This document shows positions 38,483 to 42,642 of a DNA stretch of 64,000 nt, piece by piece. The position numbers were made by a program, and so were the translations under genes. The stretch covers positions 1-64,000 of the forward strand of contig NZ_JACJOT010000007.1 of assembly GCF_014695715.1 (NCBI RefSeq), in the 5' to 3' direction. Under the pieces are notes generated by a model. The model had not been told where the DNA came from and made no database searches. It worked only from the letters and a program-made list of their open reading frames with translations. Within the stretch, counting starts at the first letter, position 1; every line of letters begins with the position of its first letter. Origin of the DNA: Microcoleus sp. FACHB-68 (GTDB taxonomy: Bacteria > Cyanobacteriota > Cyanobacteriia > Cyanobacteriales > Oscillatoriaceae).

Positions 38483-40186
38483 ATGAGTTATCGCATGGAT
38501 CGCCGCGCCTACGCAGAAACCTACGGCCCAACTGTAGGTGATCGCATTCGTCTAGCCGATACAGAATTGTTTATCGAAGTTGAACAAGACTTAACAACCT
38601 ACGGCGATGAAGTCAAATTTGGCGGCGGCAAAGTCATTCGAGATGGCATGGGACAATCTCCCATTTCTAACGCTGAGGGTGCGGTTGATCTCGTGATTAC
38701 CAATGCCTTAATCCTGGATTGGTGGGGCATTATTAAAGCCGATATCGGGATTAAAGATGGCAAAATATTCAAAATAGGAAAAGCCGGCAACCCCTACATT
38801 CAAGACAATGTCGATATCATCATTGGCCCAGGAACCGAAGCCGTCGCCGGCGAAGGCATGATTCTCACAGCCGGCGGCATTGACAGCCACATTCACTTTA
38901 TTTGTCCCCAGCAAATCGAAGTCGCCATCGCATCCGGCATCACCACCATGATTGGCGGCGGAACCGGCCCAGCCACCGGCACAAACGCCACCACCTGCAC
39001 TCCCGGCCCTCGGAACATTTACTTAATGCTACAAGCCGCCGACGCCTTCCCTGTTAACCTGGGATTTTTAGGCAAAGGCAACAGTTCCCAACCGGCAGGA
39101 CTCACCGAACAAATCGCCGCCGGCGCAATCGGACTAAAACTGCACGAAGACTGGGGAACCACCCCCGCAACCATTGACACCTGCTTAAATGTTGCCGATG
39201 AACATGACGTGCAGGTTGCCATTCACACCGACACCCTCAACGAAGCCGGTTTTGTCGAAACCACCATTGCCGCCTTCAAAAACCGCACCATCCACACTTA
39301 CCACACAGAAGGGGCCGGCGGTGGACACGCACCCGATATCATCAAAGTGTGCGGCCAAGCCAACGTTCTCCCCTCCTCCACAAACCCCACACGCCCTTAC
39401 ACTGTTAATACATTAGAAGAACATCTCGATATGCTGATGGTATGCCACCACCTTGATCGCGGCATACCCGAAGATGTGGCCTTTGCCGAGTCACGGATTC
39501 GCCGCGAAACGATCGCCGCTGAAGATATCTTGCACGACTTGGGCGCATTCAGCATGATTGCCTCAGATTCCCAAGCAATGGGAAGAGTTGGGGAAGTGAT
39601 TATTCGCACTTGGCAGACAGCGCACAAAATGAAAGTGCAACGCGGAAGCCTCAACTCGGAACCGGCAGACAACTTCCGCGCCAAACGTTATGTCGCCAAG
39701 TACACGATTAACCCGGCGATCGCCCACGGCATTGCAGAACACGTCGGTTCAGTCGAAGCCGGCAAACTGGCAGACTTGTGCCTGTGGAAACCGGCCTTTT
39801 TTGGCGTTAAACCAGAAATCGTCATCAAAGGAGGCATGATCGCCTGGTCGCAGATGGGAGACGCTAATGCCAGCATTCCCACGCCGCAGCCGGTTCAGAT
39901 GCGCCCGATGTTTGGCAGTTATGCCGGTGCGAGAACATCCACATCCCTAACCTTTGTTTCTCAAGCCGCCTTAGACTTGAACATTCCCAGCCAGTTAAAC
40001 TTGCAGAAAAAGACAGTAGCGGTTTCAGGAACGCGCCGGCTGAGTAAGCGAGATATGAAGCTCAACGACGCCCTTCCCCATATAGAAGTTGACCCAGAAA
40101 CCTATGAAGTGCGAGCAGATGGCGAATTGCTAACTTGCGAACCGGCAACCGTTTTGCCATTAGCGCAGCGCTACTTTCTTTTCTAA
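38483..40186 (+). CDS. ureC: Urease alpha subunit
   Basis: Catalytic subunit of urease with the di-nickel site. From ATG 38483 it has 567 residues, the family's usual length. Metal ligands are visible: the HIH of [14 protein letters not shown] (about 134-136), the carbamylated lysine in GLKLHEDWG (about 217), His in AIHTDTLNE and in [12 protein letters not shown], and Asp in [11 protein letters not shown] (about 360). The mobile flap with MVCHHLD (catalytic His) is intact. The frame is open to 38471, but GGGAG five bases before ATG 38483 and the family start [15 protein letters not shown] decide the start. It is the last urease gene of the region. Confidence 0.97.
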
Positions 40187-40388
40187 AACTACCAAATTTA
40201 ATGAATGTTTCTTGCAGGAGTCGTCAATGCTGATTACTTTATTTTACGATCAACACTGAACCCTTACCCTACCTATTTTATTGTGGATTTTAGATTTTAG
40301 ATAGGGTACTTTCAGACAAGAACATACATTTAAAACCACATTCAAATTGAACTTGAAACTCTCTCAGTTCCTCACAGGAAAATAGACA

Positions 40389-40835
40389 TCAAGTGGTTGT
40401 TGTTGGCAAAGAATCTGAAGAATCAGACTCAACGCGCCCACTGCCGCGATTAGCATAGCGTCTATCACCACCGGGACGATCCTGATCATCCTGATCATTT
40501 TTGGCTTGAACCGGCAACGGATCAGACTCAACACGCCCACTGCCGCGATTAGCATAGCGTCTATCACCACCGGGACGATCCTCGTCATCCTTAGTATCTT
40601 TTGCTTGAACCGGCACAGGATCAGACTCAACACGCCCACTGCCACGATTAGCACGCCGATCATCACAACCCGGACGATCATCGCAGCGATCCTTCGTAGT
40701 TTGCACCTGAGAAAAAGCCACTTTTTGAGTGGAATCAACTTGATATCCTTCAGACAGGCGCAACTCAACACCCTGAAAATTAACAGCACCGCCGAGCAGT
40801 AATAAACCCGATAAAGCAATTTTGTAGATGCCCAT
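40389..40835 (-). CDS. patX: PatX-like secreted protein with three RGSGR repeats
   Basis: A 148-residue protein with an N-terminal hydrophobic signal (KIALSGLLLLGGAVNFQG, about 5-22) and three tandem 33-residue units from residue 53 on. Each unit carries NRGSGRVESD; the pentapeptide RGSGR falls at residues 64-68, 97-101 and 130-134, exactly 33 apart. RGSGR (or RGTGR) is the HetR-binding core of the heterocyst inhibitors PatS and HetN and of PatX, a small signal-peptide protein of filamentous cyanobacteria. The units are otherwise acidic (DDEDRPGGDRR) and could be cut to release identical peptides. The ATG has no strong Shine-Dalgarno sequence, but a perfect dyad lies 13 bases upstream. Assignment to PatX rests on the motif and signal peptide; three copies is a feature I do not know from the family. 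Confidence 0.75.
   Translation of the reverse strand: MGIYKIALSGLLLLGGAVNFQGVELRLSEGYQVDSTQKVAFSQVQTTKDRCDDRPGCDDRRANRGSGRVESDPVPVQAKDTKDDEDRPGGDRRYANRGSGRVESDPLPVQAKNDQDDQDRPGGDRRYANRGSGRVESDSSDSLPTTTT
40392..40679 (-). repeat. Three 99-base tandem coding repeats
   Basis: Units of 99 bases (33 codons) covering residues 53-85, 86-118 and 119-148 (last one shorter). Units 2 and 3 share their first 20 residues exactly. RGSGR codons lie at 40632-40646, 40533-40547 and 40434-40448. The high identity indicates recent duplication or gene conversion. Confidence 0.9.
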
Positions 40836-41157
40836 GAGAAATAATCCATCAAGTAACTTTCTGCTACTTGATTCCGAAAATCCCTGGCGGCATCTGGAAA
40901 AACCGCTTTTTTTAAAGCCACTTCCTTATGCGTCTACCATTGGGCAGCCCCACAATTGCCAATTCGTGAGTTACAACAAAAATAGACAATGACAATTTAA
41001 AAACTGGCGGTAAAGACCGCGCTTATCCCCTCACATAAACTCAAAAAACCTGACAAATAAACACAATCCCCTAATCCCCTAATCTTCCAAGAGAGTAGGA
41101 AAGGGAGAAATACAAAAATCTCGGAATTCCTTCCAAAACCCAACCCCCCAACCAGCA
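40836..41157. other. Spacer between the PatX-like gene and the aldehyde dehydrogenase
   Basis: 322 bases between divergent starts. It contains the dyad at 40848-40872; no other gene, NtcA box or clear promoter was found. Confidence 0.5.
40848..40872 (-). promoter_or_regulatory. Perfect dyad in the PatX-like leader
   Basis: ATCAAGTA (40848-40855) and TACTTGAT (40865-40872) form an 8-bp perfect inverted repeat with a 9-base spacer, 13 bases before the start codon. It could be an operator or an RNA hairpin limiting translation. Confidence 0.45.
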
Positions 41158-42642
41158 ATGTATACCTGCCTTAACTACATCGATGGCCAATGGATGCCGG
41201 CTCAATCAGAAGCCACCCTAGAAAGCCGCAACCCTGCCAACTGGCACGAACTTGTTGCCACATTTCCCCATTCCAACAGCGCCGATGCCGACAAAGCCGT
41301 TCAAGCAGCCCGAAGCGCCTACCAGACATGGCGTTTGGTGCCGGCACCAACCCGTGCAGACTTTATCTATCGAGTAGGAGAACTGTTACTCAAACGCAAA
41401 GAAGAACTCGCCCACCTGATGAGCCTAGAGATGGGTAAACCCATCACCGAATCCCGTGGAGACGTGCAAGAAGGCGTTGATTGCGCCTTTTACTATGCGG
41501 GAGAAGGCCGGCGGCTATTTGGTCAAACAACGACCTCAGAGATGCCGAATAAATTTGCGATGACCATGCGAATGCCCATAGGAGTGTGCGCCCTGATCAC
41601 ACCCTGGAATTTTCCTGTCGCCATACCCTGTTGGAAAGCATTACCGGCTCTCGTGTGCGGTAACACGATCATCCTTAAACCTGCCGAAGATACACCGGCG
41701 TGTGCGAACTTCCTGATCCAGATATTCCACGATGCCGGCTTGCCACCGGGAGTCGTTAATTTAATTCATGGTTTGGGAGAAGAAGCCGGTCAAGCTTTAG
41801 TTGAGCACCCAGGTGTCGATTTAGTCTCCTTCACCGGCTCATCCCAAACAGGTGCCCACGTTGGAGAAATTTGCAGCCGCACTCACAAGCGTGTTTGTCT
41901 GGAAATGGGCGGTAAAAATGCCCAAATCGTGATGGAAGATGCAGACTTAGAACTCGCACTCGAAGGCGCACTGTGGGGAGCTTTTGGCACCGCCGGCCAG
42001 CGCTGCACCGCCACCAGCCGACTGCTCCTGCACCGCGATATCAAAGATAAATTCACCGCCATGCTGCTGGAAAGCACCGGCAAATTGCGGATCGGTGCCG
42101 GCACAGATCCAGATACACAAATCGGCCCCATTATTAACGGAGTGCAGTTGCAACGGGTGATGGATTATATGGAAGTCGCCCGCAGTGAAGGTGCAAAAAT
42201 ATTAACCGGCGGCGAGAGAGCAACTGAAGGCCCGATTAAAAAAGGTTTCTTCTTCCAGCCAACGATTCTCGATCAGGTCACTCCCGATATGCGAGTCGCC
42301 CGTGAAGAAATCTTTGGGCCGGTTGTCGCCCTCATCGAAATCAGTTCATTTGAAGAAGCGATCGCAGTTCTCAACGACACACCCTACGGCTTATCCTCAT
42401 CCGTTTATACCCGCGATGTAAACCGCGCCTTCCAAGCCATGCGCGACATCGAAGCCGGCATCACTTACATCAATGGCCCCACCATTGGCGCAGAAGTGCA
42501 TCTACCTTTTGGCGGAGTTAAGCAAACAGGTAACGGACACCGGGAAGCCGGCAGCGCTGTTCTTGATGTTTTTACAGAATGGAAAAGCGTTTATGTAGAT
42601 TTTTCCGGTCGCTTGCAACGCGCTCAAATTGACAACCATTAG
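41158..42642 (+). CDS. NAD(P)-dependent aldehyde dehydrogenase
   Basis: Oxidises an aldehyde to the acid. The 494-residue protein has the ALDH landmarks: coenzyme-binding ITPWNFPVAIPCWK (about 141-154), the glycine motif FTGSSQTG (about 224-231), the general-base Glu in CLEMGGKNA (about 246), and the catalytic Cys in AGQRCTATSR (about 283). The C-terminal IFGPVVALI and PFGGVKQTG are intact. The aldehyde cannot be told from sequence. A semialdehyde such as 2-aminoadipate or succinate semialdehyde is likely; the nearby aminotransferase and DUF1338 genes make a lysine-derived semialdehyde attractive. Confidence 0.92.
   Translation: MYTCLNYIDGQWMPAQSEATLESRNPANWHELVATFPHSNSADADKAVQAARSAYQTWRLVPAPTRADFIYRVGELLLKRKEELAHLMSLEMGKPITESRGDVQEGVDCAFYYAGEGRRLFGQTTTSEMPNKFAMTMRMPIGVCALITPWNFPVAIPCWKALPALVCGNTIILKPAEDTPACANFLIQIFHDAGLPPGVVNLIHGLGEEAGQALVEHPGVDLVSFTGSSQTGAHVGEICSRTHKRVCLEMGGKNAQIVMEDADLELALEGALWGAFGTAGQRCTATSRLLLHRDIKDKFTAMLLESTGKLRIGAGTDPDTQIGPIINGVQLQRVMDYMEVARSEGAKILTGGERATEGPIKKGFFFQPTILDQVTPDMRVAREEIFGPVVALIEISSFEEAIAVLNDTPYGLSSSVYTRDVNRAFQAMRDIEAGITYINGPTIGAEVHLPFGGVKQTGNGHREAGSAVLDVFTEWKSVYVDFSGRLQRAQIDNH

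Follow-up and report, generated by a model that had tools for sequence, protein, structure and literature searches.

The open reading frame that we analysed in the window (the whole stretch of 64,000 nucleotides) most likely encodes a paralogue of PatX, and it carries the RGSGR core three times in tandem. We consider it probable that this paralogue has turned into a multi-copy precursor, which would be exported and proteolysed into several xRGSGR inhibitors of HetR. As read from the DNA, the gene has a PatX-type N-terminus, three cores under selection and a DIF1-like site, and it coexists with a hetR gene whose peptide contacts are intact. Export, cleavage, peptide release, action on HetR and scaling of the dose are proposed for the three-unit protein by analogy with PatX.

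Organization of the tandem RGSGR gene

The features of the gene are listed in Table 1. The initial annotation had described three RGSGR cores at steps of exactly 33 residues and a stretch of 20 residues shared by units 2 and 3, and both descriptions were confirmed; the shared stretch (DRPGGDRRYANRGSGRVESD) comprises residues 86-105 and again 119-138. Unit 1 is the outlier, units 2 and 3 being closer to one another than to it. The 33-33 spacing is that of the window's species, and in two sister species the spacing is 28-33.

Table 1. Position of the tandem RGSGR gene and its elements in the window.
Feature	Position	Strand	Remarks
Tandem-RGSGR PatX paralogue (most likely), open reading frame	40389..40835	minus	ATG start, 148 aa; coordinates include the stop codon
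Signal-peptide-like N-terminal segment MGIYKIALSGLLLLGGAVNFQG, residues ~1-22	40770..40835	minus	Matched by the single-unit PatX N-terminus model
RGSGR core 1, residues 64-68	40632..40646	minus	
RGSGR core 2, residues 97-101	40533..40547	minus	
RGSGR core 3, residues 130-134	40434..40448	minus	
99-bp tandem repeat carrying the units	40418..40683	minus	2.7 copies, 87% matches
DIF1-like hexamer TCCAGA (one mismatch to TCCGGA)	40893..40898	minus	63 bases before the start codon, the usual patX DIF1 position
10-bp inverted repeat	40848..40872	minus	Between the DIF1-like site and the start codon

Chance and an artefact of frame were ruled out as sources of the cores by shuffling, by the uniqueness of the frame and by the conservation of the cores described below. 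Among the 1107 ORFs of the window (six-frame, stop-to-stop, at least 30 aa) this was the only one with RG[ST]GR. When the residues after position 24 were shuffled in 200,000 trials, at least one RGSGR appeared in 386 trials, at least two appeared in 1 and three appeared in 0. Two further species of the genus likewise have three units in their assemblies, with the same flanking genes on both sides. Expansion during assembly was rejected as the source of the units because these two sister-species assemblies agree at the same locus.

Relationship to PatX

The NCBIfam model heterocyst_PatX (NF047413) matched residues 6-70 of the protein with an E value of 9.1e-6 and 26.4 bits, and in the genome search with 28.2 bits, where the cut-off is 30. 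The tandem proteins of 16 genomes fell on both sides of this cut-off, with 10 above it (30.0 to 73.1 bits) and 6 below it (21.1 to 28.7 bits). A Pfam search of the protein gave a single weak match, YpzI (E 0.037), far under the cut-off.

We built an N-terminus model from 74 non-redundant single-unit PatX proteins (out of 110 distinct ones), from which RGSGR and the residue preceding it had been removed. This RGSGR-free model recovered all 15 tandem proteins with E values of 2.9e-13 to 1.2e-6 (set size 4000) and none of their 15 reversed decoys. Over the 1107 window ORFs the protein studied here ranked first (E 2.9e-8), followed by a runner-up at 0.1. A companion model that retained RGSGR, which reads the same backwards, also matched 13 of these 15 decoys (E up to 100; lowest E 2.3e-4) and was not relied on.

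The protein had been annotated initially as an unnamed secreted protein. The NF047413 match and the N-terminus model indicate that it is most likely a PatX paralogue, so that "unnamed" no longer applies; its hydrophobic N-terminus is homologous to that of other PatX proteins by the RGSGR-free model and is predicted to be of the Sec type. A PatS or a HetN was ruled out by the build of the protein, which has 148 aa, a signal-type start and only internal cores.

Selection on the RGSGR cores

Synonymous and non-synonymous changes were counted in three trios of species, pairwise and hence non-independently within each trio, with the core columns set from one row. Summed over the three trios, the RGSGR codons showed 24 synonymous changes over 158.7 sites and 0 non-synonymous changes over 351.3 sites. 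The rest of the protein after residue 25 showed 155.5 synonymous changes over 751 sites and 295.5 non-synonymous changes over 2855 sites. In one trio a whole unit was absent from one species, which gave 10 gap mismatches. The cores of the window's genus had a pN of 0 and a pS of 0.125, and its signal segment was strongly conserved (pN 0.012, pS 0.109); conservation of the signal segment was less clear in the trio of family f32 (pN 0.036, pS 0.052). These sequence comparisons indicate that selection fixes the RGSGR cores while the linkers drift. Loss of RGSGR from a gene otherwise conserved had been named in advance as an observation that would speak against a signalling role, and the opposite pattern was found.

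The residue preceding the core was free over the 76 units compared, which come from 15 proteins (H in 20 units, G in 18, S in 16, N and A in 8 each, Q in 3, D in 2 and E in 1). In the ten residues ahead of that position acidic residues exceeded basic ones by about 2 on average. The free residue agrees with the published structure, in which the sixth peptide residue takes part through its main-chain amino group alone and any further extension at the N-terminus would be expected to interfere with binding. The units would thus be expected to need cutting out before acting. No single cleavage motif common to all 76 linkers was found. A motif defined post hoc was present in 43 of the 76 linkers (7.7% of shuffles), yet in only 1 of the 28 linkers of the two longest arrays, and is only suggestive as a possible cleavage site.

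The tandem PatX proteins of family f32 end in decayed units that read TFGNGR or TFGNGQ, RTGR and LGSGR, and the 11-copy protein contains the broken unit ARSSDR (loci L062-L065 and L086 for these proteins together). Units have therefore been lost as well as gained.

Distribution and copy number

In an order-wide search with a PatX model, 178 of 388 sampled genomes matched at E up to 0.001. Candidate stretches were read in 122 of the 178, long reading frames first; three of these genomes (G309, G138 and G192) had no PatX with an RGxGR core, which left 119 PatX-bearing genomes. At least two RGSGR cores in one frame were found in 16 of the 119; as the reading began with long frames, this proportion is not free of bias. 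A count of units in homologues across filamentous cyanobacteria had been proposed at the outset, and it gave 2 to 17 RGSGR per frame in the tandem forms, which belong to four families. All 8 sampled genomes of the window's own family (f1) were tandem, with 2, 3, 3, 3, 3, 5, 6 and 6 copies. Family f32 contributed 5 tandem genomes (3, 3, 3, 4 and 4 copies), family f9 two (11 and 17 copies) and family f2 one (2 copies). In family f33, which we take to be the Nostocaceae, the first 30 PatX loci fetched had one pentapeptide each. When the search was extended to the class with a broader PatX model, 58 of 388 genomes matched. The order does not include 25 of the 58, and the 7 of these 25 that were read had one RGSGR each. 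Named tandem relatives are Microcoleus vaginatus WJT46-NPBG5 (metagenome-assembled), Oscillatoria princeps RMCB-10, Oscillatoria sp. PCC 10802 (with 6 copies) and Oscillatoria sp. Prado101; the related-locus scan named 4 loci, distant forms being outside its reach.

Tandem arrays expand by slippage anyway, and extra units could be cheap by-products of it if PatX were trimmed at a single end and no more than one peptide from each molecule mattered. The decayed units of the f32 and 11-copy arrays are what such a process might leave behind. Nevertheless, every core in the three trios, and not the first or the last alone, was free of amino-acid change (with one unit missing once), and at least three copies were present in 3 of 3 genera of family f32 and in 3 of 4 examined genera of family f1. 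We regard this explanation as unlikely.

Other repeated or altered elements were seen among PatX-like sequences. Weaker PatX-like matches in family f2 (L072, L075, L077, L081, L116 and L172) contain a PGCSRRD series, and another PatX-like match (L110) contains the variant QGCGRRD. In family f15 (L068, L069, L073 and L090) a conserved PxSP...RRDFF lies before HRGSGR and resembles a second core in altered form.

Locus history and origins

In the window's genus the tandem gene lies between ureC and an aldehyde dehydrogenase gene, as these neighbours were recognised by eye. Two other genera of the family have a homologue of one of these neighbours next to the tandem gene (ureC in L226, an aldehyde dehydrogenase gene in L227) when genes of at least 140 codons are considered, so that the locus probably predates the genus. 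The initial annotation had proposed a recent amplification. This was not supported for the origin of the array, as three units occur in 3 of 3 species of the genus and tandem genes with one of these neighbours occur in two other genera; what stands of the proposal is that units 2 and 3 look homogenised.

The neighbours of the tandem gene are different in genus g2. Three genera of family f32 share a neighbourhood that is unlike that of the window's genus, and linker sequences are not alike between families. The 2-copy protein of family f2 is encoded just upstream of hetR and is likely a separate event. In an N-terminal tree of 81 rows and 61 usable columns, 5 changes were needed, and a single origin was found in 0% of 200 bootstrap trees. 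The tree thus disfavours a single origin of all tandem PatX, though on 61 columns only. Several origins are favoured, and the well supported branches would still be compatible with one.

HetR and other patX genes

The absence of hetR had also been named in advance as evidence against the reading of the initial annotation. The gene was found, once (E up to 1e-3), at G000:C18:72131-73030, and its product is 79% identical (236/299) to Anabaena HetR, for which an approximate reference sequence was used. The peptide contacts in the HetR structure are reported to be Glu253, Glu254, Asp256, Asp270 and Asp278 (PMC4649674), and all of these, together with Arg223, are conserved in the HetR of the window's genome.

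Across the genomes with tandem PatX, hetR was found in 15 of 16 (the window's and 14 of 15 others) by protein search. The exception is the 11-copy genome (G015), listed as 99% complete in 320 contigs, where hetR was found neither by the protein search that matched the 14 other genomes nor by a profile search run without a positive control. This genome retains a single-unit PatX and a separate frame ending in RGSGRVDA. The six HetR positions compared were unchanged in 14 of 15 HetR proteins. The one that differs is that of the 17-copy genome (HetR L243 of G099), in which Asn replaces the contact Asp278 and a Glu/Pro-rich insertion of about 30 residues lies near the C-terminus. The alteration of the peptide-binding end there might reflect a joint change of copy number and receptor.

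A search of the genome for other RG[ST]GR genes, as had been suggested, located two single-unit patX genes in addition to the tandem gene. One (HRGSGR) precedes hetR by about 0.65 kb in the same orientation, and the second is on another contig. A DNA pattern for RGSGR that covered partial codings only matched 41 and 43 times over the genome, against 74 and 70 times when reversed, and thus showed no enrichment. The six places fetched from the pattern and PatX searches were the two single-unit patX genes, a pair of PatX-like genes without RGSGR, and three places where RGSGR or RGTGR stood only in short frames (31 to 54 residues), taken for noise.

The pair without RGSGR consists of adjacent genes at G000:C1:299071-299502 (L017 and L013; the same pair occurs in L095 and L096). 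They have DIF1-type sites, TCCGGA at -61 and TCCTGA at -62. Their C-termini, [NS]DRPKSGGRRA and CDRPGSKDCRRD[VLM]VRHT, are almost invariant over three species, and for this reason the pair may carry other signal cores.

Of the nitrogenase and heterocyst genes, nifH alone was searched for, in the window's genome, and the best match reached 220.9 bits against a cut-off of 394.35. A heterocyst role for the tandem PatX is thus unlikely. The initial proposal, a precursor with several RGSGR copies in a strain that probably forms no heterocysts, was upheld, and the relatives with 2 to 17 copies widened it.

Upstream region

The founding PatX paper of 2018 is said to give a DIF1 motif shortly upstream as a rule for all patX genes. 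The motif itself is reported as TCCGGA (PMC7377430, PMC7761841). We searched for TCCNGA at -57 to -65. Of the 15 distinct regions upstream of tandem genes, 13 contained it (as TCCAGA in 6, TCCTGA in 6, TCCGGA in 1); this set includes the f2 gene and leaves out L065, which is identical to L062. The two genes without it are those with 11 and 17 copies. The same interval contained TCCNGA in all 28 single-unit genes of the Nostocaceae type, in 50 of the 77 remaining single-unit genes and in 17 of 21 PatX-like genes without RG[ST]GR. In a control interval at -82 to -90 the numbers were 0 of 15, 0 of 28, 3 of 77 and 0 of 21, in the same order. Exact TCCGGA was present in all 28 Nostocaceae-type regions and in just 15 of 77 other single-unit regions, which indicates that a mismatch such as that of the window's gene is common.

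The inverted repeat lies roughly over the expected transcription start. A stem score of at least 8 was reached in 4 of the 15 regions of tandem genes and in 11 of the 77 regions of other single-unit genes (0.00 of mononucleotide shuffles), and by 0 of 28 Nostocaceae-type and 0 of 21 RGSGR-less regions. The repeat may serve as an operator and not as an RNA hairpin. An Rfam search of 40150-41250 at E up to 1 gave no match, and a known structured RNA where the gene begins was rejected on this ground.

The distribution of hetR and of the promoter site bears on the possibility that the protein is an uncut multivalent or structural extracellular protein, for example of the sheath or cell wall, in which RGSGR is a ligand for a target other than HetR. 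RGSGR is a known HetR ligand, hetR is present in nearly all tandem-PatX genomes, and most tandem genes have an exact or near HetR-circuit promoter site. These points make such a protein quite improbable, even though hetR was not detectable in the 11-copy genome and the effects of patX on gene expression in Leptolyngbya BL0902 were judged to be largely independent of hetR (PMC11298460). It is more improbable still, indeed hardly credible, that the locus is a decayed or silent relic whose work is done by the two single-unit RGSGR patX genes, as its off-consensus DIF1 hexamer might suggest, given that the frame, the signal segment and every core persist in the three species of the genus.

Proposed role

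We return to the reading that the paralogue is a multi-copy precursor of HetR inhibitors. PatX of Nostoc is reported to need its signal sequence, to be exported and to be matured by the peptidase PatP, and its HRGTGR peptide to bind HetR (PMC12756182). According to the same source, patP is present in 86.2% of 474 cyanobacterial genomes, and in strains without heterocysts the suggested role of PatX is control of filament growth, likely via necridia. By analogy, the three-unit protein would be exported via its signal segment, and an extracytoplasmic peptidase such as PatP would cut the linkers. Several xRGSGR peptides could in this way be freed per molecule; they would pass to adjacent cells and block the binding of HetR to DNA. 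Copy number would set the yield of inhibitor per translation event. With no nifH detected in the strain, the output would probably be another HetR-dependent decision, such as filament breakage by necridia, hormogonia or filament growth. Counting against this reading are the NF047413 score below the cut-off, the TCCAGA mismatch, the two longest arrays without TCCNGA, the 11-copy genome without detectable hetR, the BL0902 result and the lack of a common cleavage motif.

On a wider scale we suggest, tentatively, that a prohormone-type polyprotein for a developmental morphogen may have evolved more than once, with the number of cores (2 to 17) as the evolved signal dose per transcript. Its use would be other than the spacing of heterocysts at least in the window's strain, and paralogues with other cores may carry different signals.

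Comparison with known systems

The protein resembles PatX (NF047413; the PatX of Nostoc PCC 7120 has RGTGR) in being short, in its homologous signal-type N-terminus, its RG(S/T)GR core, a DIF1-type site at about -62 (with one mismatch here) and coexistence with hetR. It differs in having three pentapeptides in tandem, and its relatives 2 to 17, where PatX in the descriptions available has one. PatS and HetN of Anabaena/Nostoc have the identical RGSGR inhibitor of HetR, but each as a single pentapeptide, C-terminal in PatS and internal in HetN. To our knowledge there is no homology between PatS or HetN and PatX outside the pentapeptide. PatS of Anabaena PCC 7120 is described as having 17 residues and ending in RGSGR (PMC5812504), and the precursors of PatS and HetN are reported to be likely cleaved in the cytoplasm (PMC12756182).

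We found no description of multi-copy PatX in the CC-licensed literature, as far as searched; the founding PatX paper (Elhai and Khudyakov 2018) lies outside that scope and may mention it. The function of hetR and patX in filamentous cyanobacteria without heterocysts has been called a mystery (PMC11298460). The range from 1 to 17 copies is a natural dose series with which this role could be probed, and cores fixed in a freely changing background provide an internal control for the function of the motif.

Multi-core RiPP precursors such as those of cyanobactins are likewise bacterial and hold more than one copy of the product. Their products are modified natural products, whereas the presumed product here is an unmodified developmental signal. 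In the way it may work, the protein is most like the fungal KEX2-processed repeat proteins, including the alpha-type pheromone precursors, which are described as secreted precursors from which several identical or nearly identical motifs are cut out (PMC6339444); no homology is claimed. The presumed target differs, being an intracellular DNA-binding protein for the window's protein. With this difference, the tandem PatX proteins would be a bacterial parallel to the fungal multi-copy peptide precursors.
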